NCBI GenBank assembly: GCA_902762435.1
Contig: CACWOH010000014.1
Coordinates: 60,282 to 124,281 of the forward strand
DNA from: an uncultured Bacteroidia bacterium
GTDB lineage: Bacteria; Bacteroidota; Bacteroidia; Bacteroidales; UBA932
Direction: 5' to 3'
Length of the DNA stretch: 64,000 bases
Shown here: positions 12,031 through 61,529 of the stretch, piece after piece
Numbering within the stretch: position 1 is the first letter of the stretch
How the letters are laid out: every line of letters begins with the position of its first letter
Made by a program: the position numbers and the translations under genes
The notes under the pieces: generated by a model
Told to the model about the DNA's origin: nothing
The model's input: the letters and a program-made list of their open reading frames with translations, nothing else
Database searches by the model: none

Positions 12031-13242
12031 ATGAAGCAGACCTTACTTCTCATAGCCCTGATGGTCCCCGTATTTGCTTTTGCATACGGGGACCATCGCG
12101 GTCATGACCTGGACTCGCTGGAACGCGTCCTGGAAGAGCGTTTCACCCCGGACCGGCTGGCCGTGGCTTCGCCGGAGGAGCAGGCGGACTATGTCCGGAC
12201 CTGCCGCGAACTCGCCTGGGGCTATCTCCAACTGGACGGGCCCAGAAGCGTTTATTACGCCCGGCAGGCCATCCGGACCGGGCGGGAACTGGACAATCCG
12301 GACGCCGTGTTCGATATGTCCATCCTCATCGGCCAGGGTTTCTGGGCCAGGGACCGGTTCGACAGCGCCCGGGTGTACTACAACCAGGCCGCCGACGCGC
12401 TGGCGCTCATCGAGGCCCGCTGGAGCGACCCCGACCGGCACGACCTGGAAGCGGACCAGGCGCGGCTCTGGGGGACGCTGGGCAACTTCTACGCGATGCA
12501 GGATTCCCTGGAGCTGTTCGCCTATTATTACGGGAAGGCCGGGGAGATCTTCGAGAGGCGGGGCTGGTGGGAGGATGCCTCCACGCTGCACCGCAACATC
12601 GGGGAGGTGTACCTGGACGAAGGGGATCTCAAGGCGGCGAAGCCCGAATATGAGCGGGCCCTGCAACTGGCCCGGCAGAGCGGCGATTCGCTGATCATCG
12701 CCGGCTGCCTCTACGGAATGGGACGCTGGTACGAGGAATCCGGCAGGACCGTCAAGGCGTTGAAGTACCTGACGCAGGCCGACGAATACTTCGGCAATCA
12801 CGCGGTAGAAGAGGCCGGCGGCCGAGCCAACACGCTGGCGGTGATGAACGACGCCCGGAAAAAACTGACGCGCAGTTCCTTCCTGCTGGCCATGGGCGCC
12901 TTGGCGCTCCTGCTGCTCGCCGCCGTCGTCTTTTTCGTGAACCGGCGGCTCAGGCGGACGGAAACGGAACTGTCCGAGACCTCGGCCGTCCTGGACGAAA
13001 CCATCGAAGAACTGCGCCCCGCGGAAGATGCGGTCCCGCAGGAGCCGGTCCGCCTGACCGGACGGGAGAAGGACATCGTGCGCCTGCTGATGGAAGGAAA
13101 GACGACGCCCGAAATCGCCGAGGCGCTCTTCCTCAGCGAAAAGACCATCCTCTGGTACCGCAAGCGCCTGCACGCCAAACTGGACGTCCACACCGCCGCC
13201 GCCCTCACCGCGGAGGTCATCCGCCGCCACCTGCTGGATTGA
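12031..13242 (+). CDS. TPR-TM-LuxR HTH transmembrane regulator
   Basis: Protein of 403 residues from the ATG at 12031; the frame also has a TTG three codons earlier. Signal-like N-terminus (MKQTLLLIALMVPVFAFAYG), a periplasmic region of TPR-like helices (about 25-280; YYNQAADALALIEARW, LKAAKPEYERALQLARQSGD, ALKYLTQADEYFG), one TM (SFLLAMGALALLLLAAVVFF), a short coiled coil, and a C-terminal LuxR HTH (LTGREKDIVRLLMEGKTTPE, then ILWYRKRLHAKLDVHTAA). The layout suggests a one-component sensor that reads an envelope signal and binds DNA. Targets are unknown; the OmpA-family gene next door is a candidate. Confidence 0.82.
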   Translation: MKQTLLLIALMVPVFAFAYGDHRGHDLDSLERVLEERFTPDRLAVASPEEQADYVRTCRELAWGYLQLDGPRSVYYARQAIRTGRELDNPDAVFDMSILIGQGFWARDRFDSARVYYNQAADALALIEARWSDPDRHDLEADQARLWGTLGNFYAMQDSLELFAYYYGKAGEIFERRGWWEDASTLHRNIGEVYLDEGDLKAAKPEYERALQLARQSGDSLIIAGCLYGMGRWYEESGRTVKALKYLTQADEYFGNHAVEEAGGRANTLAVMNDARKKLTRSSFLLAMGALALLLLAAVVFFVNRRLRRTETELSETSAVLDETIEELRPAEDAVPQEPVRLTGREKDIVRLLMEGKTTPEIAEALFLSEKTILWYRKRLHAKLDVHTAAALTAEVIRRHLLD

Positions 13243-21297: not shown

Positions 21298-22638
21298 ATG
21301 GGCAAACCGAAAATCTTCGTGCTCGACACCAACATCATCCTGCACGACCACAAAGCCATCCGCAAGTTCCAGGACAACGACTTGGTAATCCCGATCGCCG
21401 TGATCGAGGAGGTGGACAAGTTCAAGAAAGGCACGGACACCCTGTCCTACAACGCCCGCGGCTTCATGCGCGACATCGACAAGATCACGAACGGCAAGAG
21501 CTTCGGGGAAGCGGGCCTGCCGATCGGCAAGGGCCTGGGCTGCATCAAGGTGGAACCCAACCACCCCTTCGCGCCGCCTTTCGACACCCTGTTCATCGAC
21601 GACACGCAGGACCACCGCATCCTCTCCACCGCGATGTGGGTGCGGGACACGCATCCCGACCGCTTCGTGGCGCTCGTGACCAAGGACATCAACCTGCGCA
21701 TGAAGGCGAAAGCCGCCGGGATGGAGGTGCAGGACTACCTGACCGACAAGGTCGAGGACCAGCGGATCGAAGACTCCCAGCGGGAGGTGCAGCACCTCAC
21801 CCCGGACGCCGACGTCCTGCAGGAACTCTCCTTCGGGCCGGACAATTCCGTGGAATGGTCCCGCGTCGTCGGGAAGAAACCCGCTCCCAACCAGATGTAC
21901 ATCTTCCGCTGGGAAGGCGAGCGCGGCGAGAGCCTCTGCGCCCGCTACGACGCCGGCCGCGACCGCATCGTGCTGGTCAAGGCCCGGAACGCCTACGGCA
22001 TCCGTCCGCGCAACGACGAGCAGAAACTGGCCCTGGACGCCTTGATGAACCCGGATGTGGAGCTGGTCTCGCTGACCGGCGGGGCGGGCACGGGCAAGAC
22101 GCTGCTCGCCCTGGCCGCCGCCCTGGCCCAGGAAGACGAGTACGAACACATCTACCTGTCGCGCCCGACGGTCATCCTCGGCAACCAGGACCTCGGCTTC
22201 CTGCCGGGCGACCAGAAACAGAAGATGAGCCCCTTCCTGCAGCCCCTGATGGACAACCTGAACGTGATCAAAGACCAGTTCCGCCCCACCTCCAAGGAGG
22301 CGCAGCGGATCGAAGCCATGCTCACGAAGGAGAAGCTGATCATCGAGCCGCTGGCCTACATCCGCGGCCGCAGCCTGGGCCGGTGCTTCTTCATCATCGA
22401 CGAGGCGCAGAACCTCACCCCGCACGAGATGAAGACCATCATCACCCGGGCCGGCGAGGGGACCAAGATGGTCTTCACGGGTGATATCTTCCAGATCGAC
22501 CAGCCCTATCTGGACCAGTGGTCCAACGGCCTGACGCACCTGGGCGAGAAGATGGCCGGCCAGGAGGTCTTCCAGCACGTCTTCCTGCGCAAGGGCGAAC
22601 GGAGCACGCTGTCCGAACTGGCCGCAAAGTTGCTATAA
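21298..22638 (+). CDS. PIN domain-PhoH ATPase (PhoH2-type)
   Basis: Protein of 446 residues. N-terminal PIN nuclease fold (about 1-150) with conserved acidic residues: VLDTNIILHD, PIAVIEEVDKFKKG, LVTKDINLRMKA. C-terminal PhoH ATPase with Walker A TGGAGTGKTLLALAAAL (about 259-275), Walker B CFFIIDEAQNLTPHEMK (about 362-378) and TRAGEGTKMVFTGD. Proteins of this PIN-PhoH build are RNA helicase/ribonucleases in other bacteria. It stands alone here without an antitoxin-like gene, 4 nt after the AIRS-like gene. Confidence 0.92.
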   Translation: MGKPKIFVLDTNIILHDHKAIRKFQDNDLVIPIAVIEEVDKFKKGTDTLSYNARGFMRDIDKITNGKSFGEAGLPIGKGLGCIKVEPNHPFAPPFDTLFIDDTQDHRILSTAMWVRDTHPDRFVALVTKDINLRMKAKAAGMEVQDYLTDKVEDQRIEDSQREVQHLTPDADVLQELSFGPDNSVEWSRVVGKKPAPNQMYIFRWEGERGESLCARYDAGRDRIVLVKARNAYGIRPRNDEQKLALDALMNPDVELVSLTGGAGTGKTLLALAAALAQEDEYEHIYLSRPTVILGNQDLGFLPGDQKQKMSPFLQPLMDNLNVIKDQFRPTSKEAQRIEAMLTKEKLIIEPLAYIRGRSLGRCFFIIDEAQNLTPHEMKTIITRAGEGTKMVFTGDIFQIDQPYLDQWSNGLTHLGEKMAGQEVFQHVFLRKGERSTLSELAAKLL

Positions 22639-37072: not shown

Positions 37073-37090
37073 GCAGATAGGAAAAGACGA

Positions 37091-37123
37091 GGGATGGTTC
37101 CCGGGCGGAACCATCCCTTTTTT
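37091..37123 (+). terminator. Intrinsic terminator after rpsO
   Basis: GGGATGGTTCC, loop CGGGC, GGAACCATCCC then TTTTTT: an 11-bp perfect stem with a T run, 18 nt after the rpsO stop. Confidence 0.92.
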
Positions 37124-39620: not shown

Positions 39621-39655
39621 GAAAGCGCCTGCCTCAATCGGGGCAGGCGCTTTTC
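39621..39655 (+). terminator. Intrinsic terminator after pnp
   Basis: AAGCGCCTGCC and GGCAGGCGCTT form an 11-bp stem with a loop of about 9 nt, then TTTTCTTGTT. 16 nt after the pnp stop; it may also serve the converging esterase gene. Confidence 0.88.
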
Positions 39656-47771: not shown

Positions 47772-48872
47772 ATGGAACGGGATTACATCGATTTGCTGGA
47801 ACTCCTGGCAATGGTCCGGGAGGAACTCGAAGCGGCCTTCCCGGAGCGCTTCTGGGTGAAGGCTGAAATCGCGTCCGTCCAGACCAAGGCGAACGGCCAC
47901 TGTTACCTCGAACTCGTCCAGCACGAGAACGGCGGCGTGGTGGCGAAAGTGAAGGCCAACATCTGGCGCTCCCGTTTCGCGCCCCTGCGCGCCTATTTCC
48001 GCGAAGCGACGGGGGGCGACCTGGCCGTCGGGATGGAGGTGCTGCTGCGGGTGCAGGTGACGTTCAGCGAGGCCTACGGCTTTTCGCTGAACGTGGAGGA
48101 AATCGAACCGCGCTACACGCTCGGCGCCGCCGAACTTCAGCGCCGCAAAACGCTGGAGAAGCTGGAGGCGGACGGCCTGCTGGACCGCCAGAAGCAACTG
48201 GAACCTGCGTTGCTGCCGTACCGCCTGGCCGTGATCTCCGCACGCGATGCGGCCGGCTTCGGCGATTTCCGCCGCCACCTGGCGGACAACGCCTACGGTT
48301 TCGTGTTCGAGACGGAACTCTTCGAGGCCACGATGCAGGGGGCGGACGCCCCGGCTTCCATCTGCGACGCCTTCGCCCGCGTGGAGTGTGCGGACAGGCC
48401 GTTCGACGCCGTCCTGCTGCTGCGCGGCGGCGGTTCCCCCCTCGACCTGGCCTGCTTCGACGACTACGGGCTGGCCCTCGCCATCGCGGACTGCCCCGTG
48501 CCGGTCTATACCGCCATCGGCCACGAGCGCGACACCCACGTGGCGGACGTCGTGGCCTACGCCCGGGTGAAGACCCCCACGGCCCTGGCCGACCTGTTCA
48601 TCGAGGCATTTGCCGCCGAGGACGAGCGCATCGGCTCCTACGGTACACGGCTGCGCACGGCCTTCCTGTCCCGGCTCTCCGCGATGGAAAGCCGCCTGGA
48701 CGCGCTGGGGGAGCGCATCCGCCGGGCCGATCCCCGCAACGTGCTGTCCCGCGGCTACACCCTGGTCACCGACGCGCGGGGCGTCGTGGTCAAGTCCGCC
48801 GCCGCCCTGCCGGCGGGAACCCCTTTCAAACTGATGTTTGCCGACGGTACCGTGGATGCCGTCGCCCGATGA
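47772..48872 (+). CDS. xseA: Exodeoxyribonuclease VII large subunit
   Basis: Protein of 366 residues. N-terminal OB fold (FWVKAEIASVQTKANGHCYL), then the catalytic domain with VISARDAAGFGDFRRHL, DAVLLLRGGGSPLDLACFDD, TAIGHERDTHVADVVA and VKTPTALADLFIEAF, and the end RRADPRNVLSRGYTLVTDA. It is shorter than usual (400-450) because the coiled-coil part near 280-320 is reduced. Works with XseB next door on single-stranded DNA. Confidence 0.94.
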   Translation: MERDYIDLLELLAMVREELEAAFPERFWVKAEIASVQTKANGHCYLELVQHENGGVVAKVKANIWRSRFAPLRAYFREATGGDLAVGMEVLLRVQVTFSEAYGFSLNVEEIEPRYTLGAAELQRRKTLEKLEADGLLDRQKQLEPALLPYRLAVISARDAAGFGDFRRHLADNAYGFVFETELFEATMQGADAPASICDAFARVECADRPFDAVLLLRGGGSPLDLACFDDYGLALAIADCPVPVYTAIGHERDTHVADVVAYARVKTPTALADLFIEAFAAEDERIGSYGTRLRTAFLSRLSAMESRLDALGERIRRADPRNVLSRGYTLVTDARGVVVKSAAALPAGTPFKLMFADGTVDAVAR

Positions 48873-55468: not shown

Positions 55469-58030
55469 ATGATCAATCAGTATGAAATGGCCACACCGTC
55501 ATGGAAAAGCGTGATGGTGACGCGCCATCTGCCTGAGGAGCTCTCGGGTCTGGAGACCCTTTGCAAGAACCTCTGGTGGTGTTGGAACGACAACGCCAAG
55601 GCGCTGTTTCGCACCGTGGATTATAATCTGTGGCACACATCCGGCCACAACCCGATGGTGATCCTGGACAAGGTCAGCCTGAAAAGATACAAGGAACTGG
55701 CGAAGGACAGGGAGTTCCTGGCCCGCCTCGACGAGGTGATGTCGGAATTCAACTCCTATATGGCCGCCAAGGCCGAACGCAAGGACCCTTCCGTCGGGTA
55801 TTTCTGCATGGAATACGGTCTGGACACCTCCCTGATGATTTATTCCGGCGGCCTGGGCATCCTGGCCGGCGACTACCTCAAGGAGACCAGCGACATGAAC
55901 GTGAACCTCGTGGCAGTCGGCCTGCTGTACCGCTACGGATACTTCAACCAGCGCCTCACCCCGCAGGGGAACCAGGTGGCGGAGTACAAGCCGCAGGACT
56001 TCCTGAAGATCCCGGCCGAGCCCGTCCTGGACGAGAACGGCTCCTGGAAGACGGTCTCCGTGCAGATGCCGGGCCGCAGCATGAGCGCCCGCATCTGGAA
56101 GGTGGCGGTCGGCCGCACCGACCTCTACCTGCTGGATACCGACTACGAGGACAACATCCCCGAAGACCGCCAGGTCACGCACCAGCTCTACGGAGGTGAC
56201 TGGGAGAACCGCCTGAAGCAGGAGATCCTGCTCGGCATCGGCGGCGTGCGCGCCCTGCGCGCCCTCGGCCTGAATCCCAAGATCTACCATTACAACGAGG
56301 GCCACGCCGCATTTGCAGGCCTGGAGCGCCTCCGCGAGTGCATCCAGGACAACCATCTCTCCTTCAACGAGGCGATGGAACTGGTCCGCGCGTCCGGTCT
56401 CTACACCACCCACACCCCGGTTCCCGCCGGCCACGACGCCTTCTCCGAGGAGATGATCGGCCGTTACTTCGGCCACTATCCCGGCCGCCTGGGCATCGAC
56501 TGGCGCACGATGATGGGCCTGGGCCGCATCAACGCGGACGACCGCGACGAGAAGTTCTCCATGAGCCACCTCGCCGCCAACCTCTCGCAGAACGTCAACG
56601 GCGTGTCCATGCTGCACGGCAAGGTCAGCCAGGACATCTTCGCGGATATGTATCCCGGCTACCTCCCGGAGGAACTCTATATCAGCTACGTCACCAACGG
56701 CGTCCACTACCCGACCTGGGCTTCCAAGTACTGGAAGGAGCTGCACGCCAAGGTGTTCGGTCCCGAGTTCCAGACGCATCACTACGACAAGAAGTGCTTC
56801 GAGGGCATCTATACGGTGCCCGACGCCGAGATCTGGGGCATCCGCAAGGTGCTCAAGAAGGAACTTGTCCGGACCATCCGCGAGCGCCTCTCCGACCCGC
56901 AGATGAGCGCCCATTACACCCCGCGCCAGGTTGTCACGATCAAGGAACGCCTGCGCGAGGACGTGCTCACCATCGGCTTCGCCCGCCGCTTCGCCACCTA
57001 CAAGCGCGCCACCCTGCTGTTCAGCGACCTGGACCGCCTGGACGCCATCGTCAACGACCCCGTGCGTCCGGTGCAGTTCATCTTCGCCGGCAAGGCGCAT
57101 CCGGCCGACGGCATGGGCCAGGACCTCATCAAGCAGATCATCGAGATCTCCAAGGAAGACCGCTTCCTCGGCCGCATCATCTTCGTTCCCGGTTACGACA
57201 TGACCCTGGCCAAGCGCCTCGTACAGGGTGTGGACGTGTGGCTGAACAACCCGACCCGTCCGCTGGAGGCCTCCGGTACGTCCGGTGAAAAGGCCGCGAT
57301 GAACGGCGTGATGCATTTCTCCGTACTGGACGGCTGGTGGGTCGAGGGCTACAAGGAAGGCGCCGGCTGGGCCCTGCCGCAGAAGCGGACCTACGAGGAC
57401 CAGAACTACCAGAACGAATTGGATTCCGCGACGATTTACGCCACGATCGAAACCGAGATCGCGCCCGCCTACTACGACGTGGACGCCACTTCCGGCCTGT
57501 CGCCCGTGTGGGTCGGCTACATCAAGAACACGATTGCGCAGGTGGCCTGCAACTTCACCACCAACCGCATGCTCACCGATTATTGTAACCAGTACTATCT
57601 GCCTCAGTACGAGCGCTTCACGCAGATGTGCCAGGATGACTTCAAACTCGCCCGCGAGATTTCCGCCTGGAAGCGGATGATGCAGGTGGAGTGGGGCAAC
57701 ATCCGCGTCGTGTCCTGCTCGCAGCCGGACGCTTCCTACGTCCTGTCGCAGAACGACATGCTCAAGAGCAAGGTCGTGCTCGACCTGGGCCGCATCCGTC
57801 CGGAGGACATCGGCGTCGAGGTCGTGTTCACCACGGCGGACGCCAAGGGCGAACTGCACATTCAGGGCGTTTCTGAAATGGCGCTGACGAAGGTCGAAGG
57901 CAGCCTTGCGACCTTCGAGGCGGAGGTGTTGCCGGAGCATACGGGTATGTACCAGGTCGGCAAGCGTGTCTTCCCGAAGAACCCTTGCCTCCCGCACCGG
58001 CAGGACTTCCCGCTTGTGAAATGGCTGTAA
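55469..58030 (+). CDS. glgP: Alpha-glucan (glycogen) phosphorylase
   Basis: Protein of 853 residues, the shorter GT35 type without the long N-terminal regulatory part. Key blocks: YFCMEYGLDTSLMIYSGGLG, KIYHYNEGHAAFAGLERLRE, FARRFATYKRATLLFSDLD, and the PLP lysine region LEASGTSGEKAAMNGVMHFS. Releases glucose 1-phosphate from glycogen. Its last 10 nt overlap ribF. Confidence 0.95.
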   Translation: MINQYEMATPSWKSVMVTRHLPEELSGLETLCKNLWWCWNDNAKALFRTVDYNLWHTSGHNPMVILDKVSLKRYKELAKDREFLARLDEVMSEFNSYMAAKAERKDPSVGYFCMEYGLDTSLMIYSGGLGILAGDYLKETSDMNVNLVAVGLLYRYGYFNQRLTPQGNQVAEYKPQDFLKIPAEPVLDENGSWKTVSVQMPGRSMSARIWKVAVGRTDLYLLDTDYEDNIPEDRQVTHQLYGGDWENRLKQEILLGIGGVRALRALGLNPKIYHYNEGHAAFAGLERLRECIQDNHLSFNEAMELVRASGLYTTHTPVPAGHDAFSEEMIGRYFGHYPGRLGIDWRTMMGLGRINADDRDEKFSMSHLAANLSQNVNGVSMLHGKVSQDIFADMYPGYLPEELYISYVTNGVHYPTWASKYWKELHAKVFGPEFQTHHYDKKCFEGIYTVPDAEIWGIRKVLKKELVRTIRERLSDPQMSAHYTPRQVVTIKERLREDVLTIGFARRFATYKRATLLFSDLDRLDAIVNDPVRPVQFIFAGKAHPADGMGQDLIKQIIEISKEDRFLGRIIFVPGYDMTLAKRLVQGVDVWLNNPTRPLEASGTSGEKAAMNGVMHFSVLDGWWVEGYKEGAGWALPQKRTYEDQNYQNELDSATIYATIETEIAPAYYDVDATSGLSPVWVGYIKNTIAQVACNFTTNRMLTDYCNQYYLPQYERFTQMCQDDFKLAREISAWKRMMQVEWGNIRVVSCSQPDASYVLSQNDMLKSKVVLDLGRIRPEDIGVEVVFTTADAKGELHIQGVSEMALTKVEGSLATFEAEVLPEHTGMYQVGKRVFPKNPCLPHRQDFPLVKWL

Positions 58031-59031
58031 TCGCCACAGGTTTTTTCGACGGTGTCCATCTCGGGCACCGTCGTGTCGTTGAGGCGCTCGTCTCCTTCGC
58101 CCGCCGTACGGGCGGGGAGGCGGTCGTCGTCACGTTCGCGCAGCATCCCCGCGCCGTCCTGCAGCAGGACGCGCGCAGCCTGCGCCTGCTGACTTCGGCG
58201 GAGGAGAAGGAGGCGATGCTGTATGAACTGGGCGTGGACCGGGTGGAGACCCTCCCGTTCGACCGCGCCTTCGCCCGGCTGACGGCCTCCGAATACATCT
58301 ACGACGTGCTGATCGGCCGCTTCGATGCCGACGGCCTCGTGCTCGGATACGACAACCGCTTCGGTTCGGACCGCCTGACCCCTGACCGGATCGCCCCCCT
58401 TGCCGAGTCCCTCGGCCTGGAGGTGCTGGTCGTGCCCCCGGTGGTCACGGGCGCAGTGGAGACGGCAGCAGCCTCCGAAAACCGTAGCCACCCTCGGCTC
58501 CGTAAGAGGGAGGGGCCCGCTGACGAAGTCAGTGGGAGGGGTCCGGCATCGCCAGACGTTTTCGGGGGCTGGCTGCCGCGCAACGAAGCCGGGACCGACG
58601 GGGTGGTGGTGAGTTCGACGAAGATCCGGGAGGCGCTGGACAAAGGGGACGTGGAGGCGGCGAACGCGATGCTGGGCTACGCCTACACCCTGCGGGGCGT
58701 CGTGGTAGGCGGAAAGCAGCTGGGCCGTACCCTGGGCTTCCCGACCGCCAACCTGCGCCTGTACGACCCGCTGAAGATGATTCCCGCGCGCGGCGTCTAC
58801 CTGACGGAAGTCGAGGTCGCCGGGCAGCGGTTCTGGGGCATGACCAACGTCGGCGACATCATCGAGACGAACATCTTCGACTTCCACGAGGACATCTACG
58901 GCCTCGACCTGCGGCTGCATTTCAAAAAGCGCCTCCGGGACGGGAAGCGCTTTGAAAATCTGGAGGGTCTGAAGACCCAGCTGGCAGCGGACGAGGCCGT
59001 CTGCCGGGCCCTGCTGGCCGGAAAGGCCTAG
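58021..59031 (+). CDS. ribF: Bifunctional riboflavin kinase/FAD synthetase with in-frame palindromic insert
   Basis: Protein of 336 residues from MAVIATGFFDGVHLGHRRVV; the first 15 or so residues of longer homologues are missing. FAD synthetase part: GFFDGVHLGH, VLGYDNRFGSDR, GVVVSSTKIREAL. Riboflavin kinase part: GRTLGFPTANLRLY, RGVYLTEVEV, MTNVGDIIETNIFDFHEDIY. Between the VPPVVTGAVETAAA strand and GTDGVVVSSTKIR an extra stretch (about residues 149-186) is coded by the palindromic element; homologues go straight from strand to SSTKIR. The insert lies in a surface loop, so function is probably kept. Overlaps glgP by 10 nt. Confidence 0.93.
   Translation: MAVIATGFFDGVHLGHRRVVEALVSFARRTGGEAVVVTFAQHPRAVLQQDARSLRLLTSAEEKEAMLYELGVDRVETLPFDRAFARLTASEYIYDVLIGRFDADGLVLGYDNRFGSDRLTPDRIAPLAESLGLEVLVVPPVVTGAVETAAASENRSHPRLRKREGPADEVSGRGPASPDVFGGWLPRNEAGTDGVVVSSTKIREALDKGDVEAANAMLGYAYTLRGVVVGGKQLGRTLGFPTANLRLYDPLKMIPARGVYLTEVEVAGQRFWGMTNVGDIIETNIFDFHEDIYGLDLRLHFKKRLRDGKRFENLEGLKTQLAADEAVCRALLAGKA
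58464..58577 (+). repeat. Palindromic coding element, copy A (in ribF)
   Basis: The 87-bp unit runs from GAAAAC (58477) to GTTTTC (58563), 29 codons exactly in frame, and encodes ENRSHPRLRKREGPADEVSG and following residues. Its first 68 bp (58477-58544) equal copy B. Inner hairpins: CCCTC...GAGGG, CCCGCTGAC-GAA-GTCAGTGGG, and a variable GGC-ATC-GCC. The outer arms GGCAGCAGCCTCC and GGGGGCTGGCTGCC pair imperfectly and extend the end stem. Confidence 0.85.
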
Positions 59032-61059: not shown

Positions 61060-61091
61060 CAAATATAATAATTTTCGGATTAAGCGTCAAA
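61060..61091 (-). promoter_or_regulatory. Promoter TTTG-N20-TATATTTG of greA
   Basis: Minus strand: TTTG at 61088-61091, 20-bp spacer, TATATTTG at 61060-61067. It overlaps the last codons of the upstream short TM-protein gene and gives a leader of about 65 nt. Confidence 0.7.
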
Positions 61092-61529
61092 TTTGGGCTT
61101 GAGTATTTCCGAATATATGATCAGTTTTTTCTTGTCGATTTTCAGCTTGTCCGCCGGCTCGACCGGCTCCGGGGCTTCCTGCGGCCCGTTCTTATGGACG
61201 GCCCGGATTCCCTCTTGTCCAAACTCCGGGCTGCCGGCAGGGTTGCCCCCGAAAACGTCCTGCTGCGCAGGACCCCTCCCACTGACTTCGTCAGCGGGCC
61301 CCTCCCTCTTACGGAGCCGAGGGTGGCTACGGTTTTCTGGGGCAACCCCGCCGGCAGCCTCAGGGGAAAACTCCCGGGCAAACTCCTCGAATGATATGGG
61401 GGAAGGACGATGCATTGAAGGCTTGGGAGGCGGGGACGCGGCACGTTTCTGCCTGGCGCGCTTGTCAAGCAGGGCGACGACCACCGGGAAGGCGAACATC
61501 AGCAGGGGGATGAGAAACTCCCAGTCCAT
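61080..61529 (-). CDS. Short membrane-anchored protein carrying the palindromic insert
   Basis: Protein of 149 residues. N-terminal TM (FLIPLLMFAFPVVVALL), a basic linker KRARQKRAA, a low-complexity middle, and a conserved-looking end (KLKIDKKKLIIYSEILKPKF) as found in small Bacteroidota proteins of unknown function. Residues 65-93 are the palindromic element, in the same frame as in ribF. Without the insert the protein would be about 105-120 residues. A perfect promoter ends 4 nt before the ATG, so the message would be leaderless. Confidence 0.75.
   Translation of the reverse strand: MDWEFLIPLLMFAFPVVVALLDKRARQKRAASPPPKPSMHRPSPISFEEFAREFSPEAAGGVAPENRSHPRLRKREGPADEVSGRGPAQQDVFGGNPAGSPEFGQEGIRAVHKNGPQEAPEPVEPADKLKIDKKKLIIYSEILKPKFDA
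61229..61359 (-). repeat. Palindromic coding element, copy B
   Basis: Inverted relative to copy A on the chromosome, but same orientation relative to its host gene. The 87-bp unit (61251-61337) is 29 codons in frame; its first 68 bp (61270-61337 on minus) equal copy A. The inner variable hairpin is TCCTGC-GCA-GCAGGA. The outer arms are 28 bp (61229-61256 and 61332-61359) with two mismatches, one of which is G-U in the transcript. Confidence 0.85.

Follow-up and report, generated by a model that had tools for sequence, protein, structure and literature searches.

The ribF insert and a second copy in the window

The window, by which we mean the whole analysed stretch of 64,000 nucleotides (contig CACWOH010000014.1 of assembly GCA_902762435.1, an uncultured Bacteroidia bacterium), carries a ribF gene for FAD synthetase/riboflavin kinase with an in-frame insert. 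The Pfam matches obtained with query 58024–59028 were FAD_syn (residues 1–143) and Flavokinase (residues 217–330), and the insert lies between the nucleotidyltransferase part and the SSTKIR motif. The features are as follows.

58021–59031, plus strand: ribF (FAD synthetase / riboflavin kinase), interrupted in frame
58453–58588 (approximate ends), plus strand: ribF element, unit (core and shared arms) in common with copy L002 of the same genome, from a by-eye comparison of the flanks of L001 and L002
58464–58482, plus strand: outer arm P1, left part, pairing with the right arm in the minimum-energy fold of 58464–58577
58558–58577, plus strand: outer arm P1, right part, from the same fold
58483–58510, plus strand: H-type pseudoknot, from covariation of both helices (64 copies) and sequence types (173 copies)
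58483–58489 (CGTAGCC) with 58496–58502 (GGCTCCG): pseudoknot helix 1, one mismatch
58491–58495 (CCCTC) with 58506–58510 (GAGGG): pseudoknot helix 2
58516–58536, plus strand: hairpin H2, CCCGCTGAC-GAA-GTCAGTGGG (helix 3; 91.9% of cells paired, two-sided change in 5 of 9 pairs)
58541–58557, plus strand: hairpin H3, GTCCGGC-ATC-GCCAGAC, from the folds (one mismatch in the ribF copy; covariation weaker)
61245–61343, minus strand: second copy, in frame in a hypothetical ORF (61080–61529, minus strand, 149 aa)

An earlier note on this DNA had described an 87-bp hairpin-rich unit in ribF, and the description held in most respects. The 87-mer (58477–58563) starts on codon 153 with the first base of GAAAAC, as follows from the RibF ATG at 58021, has no stop in the ribF frame and shares with the second copy an identical run of exactly 68 bp from 58477; over 99 bp the two copies are 91.9% identical. 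It was said to read open in other frames too, which applies to two of the sense and two of the antisense frames, four of the six in all; stops interrupt the remaining sense frame three times and the remaining antisense frame once. When both strands of both copies were folded, none of 200 shuffles did as well in any of the four cases, with z-scores of −3.8 to −5.0. The boundaries had been drawn too narrowly: the 87 bp are the inner part of a shared unit of about 58453–58588, and base pairing of the ribF copy extends outward beyond it. This larger unit is stop-free in the ribF frame and translates as AVETAAASENRSHPRLRKREGPADEVSGRGPASPDVFGGWLPRNE.

Ten of 14 aligned RibF proteins have only a short loop at the insert site, and an extra loop common to all homologues, which the earlier note had named as a refuting result, was not seen. 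In an AlphaFold2 prediction of RibF (alignment of 15 sequences; mean pLDDT 80.5) the insert was modelled at very low confidence, as in a disordered loop, the sole segment below 50 being residues 144–191. The RibF proteins of two congeners (L061 from genome G088 and L062 from G019) contain a different in-frame repeat peptide, WAPPSYMAEGGH/WAPPSYTAEGGHG, at two positions.

A covariance-model search of the window returned the ribF copy and the second copy below an E-value of 1e-20 and one weak place (E 0.22). No Pfam match was obtained for ORF 61080–61529, which hosts the second copy. The window also contains five distinct perfect hairpins with arms of at least 11 bp (12060–12097, 22430–22477, 37090–37118, 39622–39653 and 48060–48094), against 0–2 in four Markov shuffles; some of them could be terminators.

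Copies per genome and spread across the order

The element in ribF belongs to a multi-copy repeat family, and further copies in the genome, on which the earlier note had made its reading depend, were found: BLAST gave 33 matches at E≤1 and the model 37 at E≤0.001. It was present in 43 of 49 genomes of the genus (this one included; perhaps a Cryptobacteroides-like genus of GTDB), with a median of 11 matches per genome and 702 in all, and in a single genome (G276, 5 matches) of the 32 taken from other families of the order; these counts may be lower bounds, as at most 53 candidates were scored per genome and the filters were stricter. A pattern scan of public genomes yielded at least 114 stretches. 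Among the 80 stretches whose titles were listed, 67 came from Bacteroidales, Bacteroidia or Bacteroidaceae assemblies, many of rumen or gut origin, and 13 from other organisms. Two hits of one pattern in IMG/VR were taken as chance because the rest of the core was absent by eye, and carriage by phage was rejected. The family was not found in the open-access literature searched, a body that leaves most subscription papers outside.

Structure of the core

The copies compared below were collected by a profile search, which gave 178; an earlier regular expression had been too strict (39 copies). The pattern of an H-type pseudoknot was recognized in the 5′ part of 173 of the 178, with five unmatched. 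Within this part AGCC goes with GGCT, GGCC with GGCC and TGCC with GGCA, with mismatches in four copies (L231, L246, L035, L238). Likewise CCCTC, CCCGT, CCCAT, CCCGC, CCCAC and CCCCC each come with the matching complement, the exception being L139. Over 64 sequences, 90.0% of the core cells were paired versus 75.7% in shuffles, and the covariation score was 0.310 versus 0.096 for shuffled and 0.031–0.077 for slid sequences. The pseudoknot helix was paired in 96.1% of cells. Hairpin H2, whose length varies between copies, showed strong covariation and a recurrent G-U pair (42 of 64 sequences), and H3 (helix 4) aligned less well (68.1% of cells paired). One measure pointed the other way: the number of further pair types, 30, was reached or exceeded by 496 of 500 shuffles (mean 34.9).

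Rfam gave no match to the ribF copy at E≤5. For ten further loci its only match at E≤1 was an SRP RNA outside the element, the Bacteroidales small SRP RNA (RF04183) at L012:936–1043.

Complementary outer arms

The core is flanked by complementary arms with a median length of 29 nt in the 178 copies. The mean pairing score was 20.2 with an arm's own partner and 8.3 with the partner from another copy; 136 of the 178 copies lay above the 99th percentile of mismatched pairs and 42 fell below this threshold. A single copy exceeded the maximum mismatched score (42), a value probably due to relatives among the copies whose arms are alike. Between different copies that passed, left arms resembled one another at the background level (8.0). 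The 11 copies of one subfamily share a constant inner arm and differ in their outermost bases; judged by eye, the 10 outer bases are perfectly complementary in four copies, and the complementarity is shorter or imperfect in the other seven.

The arms could be compared at a single site in YgiQ for six of 19 filled species, picked for equal arm length (L361, with shorter arms, was omitted). In these, 147 of 156 cells were paired and two-sided change was seen at 14 of 26 positions. Own partners scored 23–26 of 26 and partners from mismatched species 17–26 of 26, the latter being high because close species share arms.

Host genes and reading frame

Thirty loci of the genome were read, which represent 29 distinct copies, since L025 and L026 are, as judged by eye, contig ends that overlap and share a single copy. 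Fifteen of the 29 lie in frame within ORFs with Pfam matches. The hosts, for which names beyond Pfam were assigned in this analysis, are RibF, a SpoU-type methyltransferase, a XerC-like recombinase, RNase R, an RlmI-like methyltransferase, TldD, a HI0933-like oxidoreductase, RsmF, PcrA/UvrD, PmbA/TldE, YgiQ, QueH, DsbD, glycine dehydrogenase and GltD (a truncated copy). Three of these copies are antisense (RlmI-like, RsmF and PmbA/TldE). A further repeat was noticed near the element in the TldD and RsmF genes (L011 and L013), as PLSDFCCTKVPGPAGPLMRTSLRSTC in one of them and, judged by eye, in the opposite orientation in the other.

Outside this genome, 68 of 78 testable copies lay within a spanning ORF of at least 150 aa and 10 did not. 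These came from 98 pattern-scan copies, a set without the 13 stretches titled as non-Bacteroidales and with the 34 stretches outside the listed titles; 20 of the 98 were too near a contig end for the ORF test. Twenty distinct spanning ORFs (22 of the 68 rows, all from Bacteroidales or Bacteroidia records; L119 and L125 omitted) were searched with Pfam, and 18 gave a match and two none. Hosts elsewhere include the DNA polymerase III gamma/tau ATPase, an rRNA adenine dimethylase, a class-III aminotransferase (read as ArgD), an aldehyde dehydrogenase, glycosidases and another RibF. As most of a bacterial genome is coding, location within an ORF is weak evidence by itself, and we place the weight on the Pfam frames and the aligned empty sites.

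Eleven genes were aligned with those of up to five close genomes. The loops at the orthologous sites were empty, held another family or orientation, or contained apparent remnants, and all 59 gap lengths, empty ones included, were multiples of three (42 of them at least 80 nt). At the filled YgiQ sites, the 19 inserts of 90–279 nt were all multiples of three and stop-free; six YgiQ sites are common to both sets. In both cases the left and right flanks were searched separately, so that agreement in frame was not built into the procedure. On these alignments the insert is therefore probably translated. A fixed codon phase, suspected from the first copies, was rejected: antisense copies in the ORFs L007 and L314, homologous by eye, use different frames.

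Other insert peptides were noted in passing. One, SDYPAIPLEGVQG (DSEYPAIPLEGVQG in the second), is shared by the RlmI-like protein and GltD of two congeners (L235, L249); PLHPQ/PLRPQ..SPETPSV occurs in YgiQ and resembles a stretch of KsgA, and an ArgD-like protein contains EILRSAQND (L215, L358, L178, L367).

Empty sites and inversion of the core

YgiQ was matched in 62 of 81 genomes and 40 of the 62 align straight through the site; the site was left unmeasured in G072 (split over contigs) and in G087 and G010 (one side only). Short loops were found in some relatives for the RibF, RlmI-like, RNase R, HI0933-like, SpoU-type and XerC-like genes. No target duplication could be defined in the ArgD-like, MBL-fold and aldehyde dehydrogenase genes, where an inverted duplication was sought and different species were compared; insertion is for this reason deduced from filled versus empty orthologues of different species. 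At the ArgD-like site the nearest relative carries another insert.

At the YgiQ site the core is in the sense orientation in L357 (G062) and antisense in L359 (G061) and L360 (G005), while the left arms of the latter two are identical to that of L357 at 25 and 24 of 26 positions. An inverted core is the expected product of recombination or strand switching between inverted arms; separate insertions with identical arms are a less likely source.

Origin and maintenance of the element

The many copies, the in-frame insertion, the empty sites, the covariation of the core, the copy-specific paired arms and the inversion of the core at one site were all computed directly. We consider it probable that they reflect a genus-wide family of non-autonomous, selfish palindromic elements, tolerated because they are translated through. 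Each copy has a structured core of about 60–117 nt, in which two hairpins follow an H-type pseudoknot, and is bounded by an outer palindrome; it would presumably be mobilized in trans by an enzyme and inserted into loops of housekeeping proteins. A copy would be retained when it kept the frame, since most frames of the element are stop-free, and would then be translated as an extra, probably disordered loop. The arms would be maintained and extended outward by template switching at the hairpin (quasipalindrome correction), and the core could flip by recombination or switching between them. Points against this explanation are that no mobilizing enzyme could be linked to the element and no target duplication defined, that ten of the 78 testable copies elsewhere lie outside long ORFs, and that the arms of 42 of the 178 copies fall short in the pairing test.

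For the upkeep of the arms a different account has some claim, though we hold it doubtful: the fold would be selected on the element's own single strand, either as an ssDNA substrate of a Y1/RAYT-like transposase or as a transcript, and not be corrected by template switching. It bears on the maintenance of the arms alone and in other respects shares ground with the selfish-element explanation. The two-sided changes in core and arms and the recurrent G-U pair of H2 agree with it, as do the imperfect pairs in the arms, among which G-T exceeded A-C by 80 to 34 in 136 copies, a figure inflated by shared ancestry among the copies, and by 30 to 15 in 51 arm clusters; this excess leans towards a selected single-strand fold.

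The enzyme that such selection might involve was looked for among Y1- and RAYT-like genes, and no mobilizing enzyme could be linked to the element. A Y1_Tnp search of the genome gave no match at 1e-5. A profile of the divergent RAYT-like family of the genus (about 310 aa) matched in 66 of 81 genomes, with seven matches in the present one, of which three are pieces of one broken gene, the best match (G000:C38:915–1707), and four are weaker. RAYT-like presence tracks the element across the genus: the element was absent from five of eight genomes without a RAYT-like match versus one of 41 with a match (Fisher p 1.7e-4, Spearman 0.51; statistics that ignore relatedness and completeness of the genomes). 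Against this account, the core was not enriched beside RAYT-like genes, with one match in 144,059 bases of 39 loci, and the best own RAYT-like match is in pieces. The single adjacent copy, within an ORF read as helix-hairpin-helix, was taken as chance. Some RAYT-like genes are adjoined by other long palindromes, which look different from the element and speak against the account as well. The RAYT-like genes are a genome-level correlate only.

A bolder version of the selfish-element explanation, which we put forward tentatively, holds that the core is itself a maker of palindromes: a pseudoknotted single-strand fold by which the flanks might be rewritten into mutual complements and the core itself flipped. 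If so, the heritable unit would be the structured core, and the arms would be re-created at each site and co-evolve there. Such a mode of upkeep was not met in the literature searched on protein-coding palindromes.

Removal or skipping of the insert at the level of the RNA or the ribosome, by a tiny self-excising RNA or a bypassing element whose fold is conserved for that purpose, appears improbable. It would fit the covarying pseudoknotted core, the long closing stem that brings both ends together and the G-T excess in the arms, but the frame would then not need to be kept, yet all 59 gaps and all 19 YgiQ inserts (six sites in common) have lengths divisible by three, and the insert is spanned by long ORFs. 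Moreover, genes carry the core in either orientation, and do so even at one and the same site, so that the fold of one strand is not always in the mRNA, and no Rfam family matches the element.

We give slightly less credence still to insertion into pre-existing hairpins, the arms being those of the target. The subfamily with shared inner arms and copy-specific outermost arms would suit it, as would the hairpins at some empty sites (mean z −1.73 for MBL-fold, n=6; −1.58 for aldehyde dehydrogenase, n=7; −4.4 at one XerC-like site). In the XerC-like gene of G089 (L206) the insertion site lacks a core but has a perfect inverted repeat of 14 bp around a 4-nt loop. However, no such excess was present at the empty sites in YgiQ (mean z −0.08, n=30), ArgD-like (−0.07, n=17) and RibF genes (+0.66, n=10), and pre-existing hairpins are not a general target. 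Finally, a functional protein module, its peptide selected for a role in the host enzymes, is hardly credible: a similar peptide does recur across many unrelated enzymes, but the same loop holds different families, orientations or frames, or none, depending on the species, and the insert has low structure confidence (pLDDT).

If the selfish-element explanation holds, housekeeping enzymes can absorb some 30–90 extra residues, and such loops should be annotated as mobile DNA and not as conserved domains. Rickettsia and Wolbachia are the best-known carriers of protein-coding palindromic elements; in one gut Bacteroidales genus, 49 genomes with a median of 11 matches make their origin and upkeep testable across related species, and the co-changing arms may be a natural record of template switching.

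Comparison with known systems

MITEs resemble the element in that it is short and multicopy, has terminal inverted repeats (the outer arms) and shows no coding capacity of its own; no parental transposon was identified among the Y1/RAYT-like genes examined, and the comparison, which covered different species, defined no target duplication.

REPs are described, in the excerpted account, as repeats of 20–40 bp that are mostly intergenic, the GTAG and CGTC types being associated with RAYTs; intragenic REPs are reported for a number of species, above all Opitutus terrae and R. conorii, and CGTC repeats are reported from Bacteroidetes, among five phyla (PMC3733652). The present element is likewise palindromic. 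Its commonest core type contains GTAG, and the antisense strand of that core starts, at the opposite end, with CGTC, of which the GTC lies in the H3 stem in the fold. Unlike the unpaired foot tag of a GTAG REP, its GTAG bases pair in the pseudoknot and vary (AGCC, GGCC and TGCC types), and linkage to RAYT genes was lacking (one core match in 39 loci).

In the coding palindromes of nematomorph mitochondria, inverted repeats within coding sequence are gained and lost as well, and template switching is one possible route for co-evolution of the arms; their arms encode conserved amino acids, and a common repeated core is unmentioned in the portion of the source available (PMC6649704). The Bacteroidales element is instead a repeated core between arms that consist mostly of extra sequence.

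The closest likeness is to the Rickettsia and Wolbachia palindromic elements (RPEs and WPEs), which the available extracts present as short palindromic repeats, tolerated by the many unrelated genes in which they lie in frame (PMC10969869, PMC2229807, PMC4224334); for RPEs a loss of repeat identity with time is described (PMC6649704, also in extract). Our element is palindromic and in frame in unrelated protein genes too, and its length agrees with the range of about 105–150 bp, at about 136 bp in ribF (by eye) and 111, 114, 149 or 150 bp in another subfamily. The likening to RPEs in the earlier note thus stands as far as behaviour is concerned. The element may be called RPE-like by description; its arms, its pseudoknotted core and its core inversion differ. 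The hosts belong to a gut Bacteroidales genus. The arms are copy-specific yet complementary (147 of 156 cells in YgiQ), with 42 of 178 copies failing the arm test, and neither a pseudoknotted core nor inverted cores are mentioned in the extracts on RPE/WPE, which were compared by description only. Relative to the RPE descriptions in these extracts, what is new is the covarying core of a pseudoknot and two hairpins, the copy-specific complementary arms and the inversion of the core at one site.
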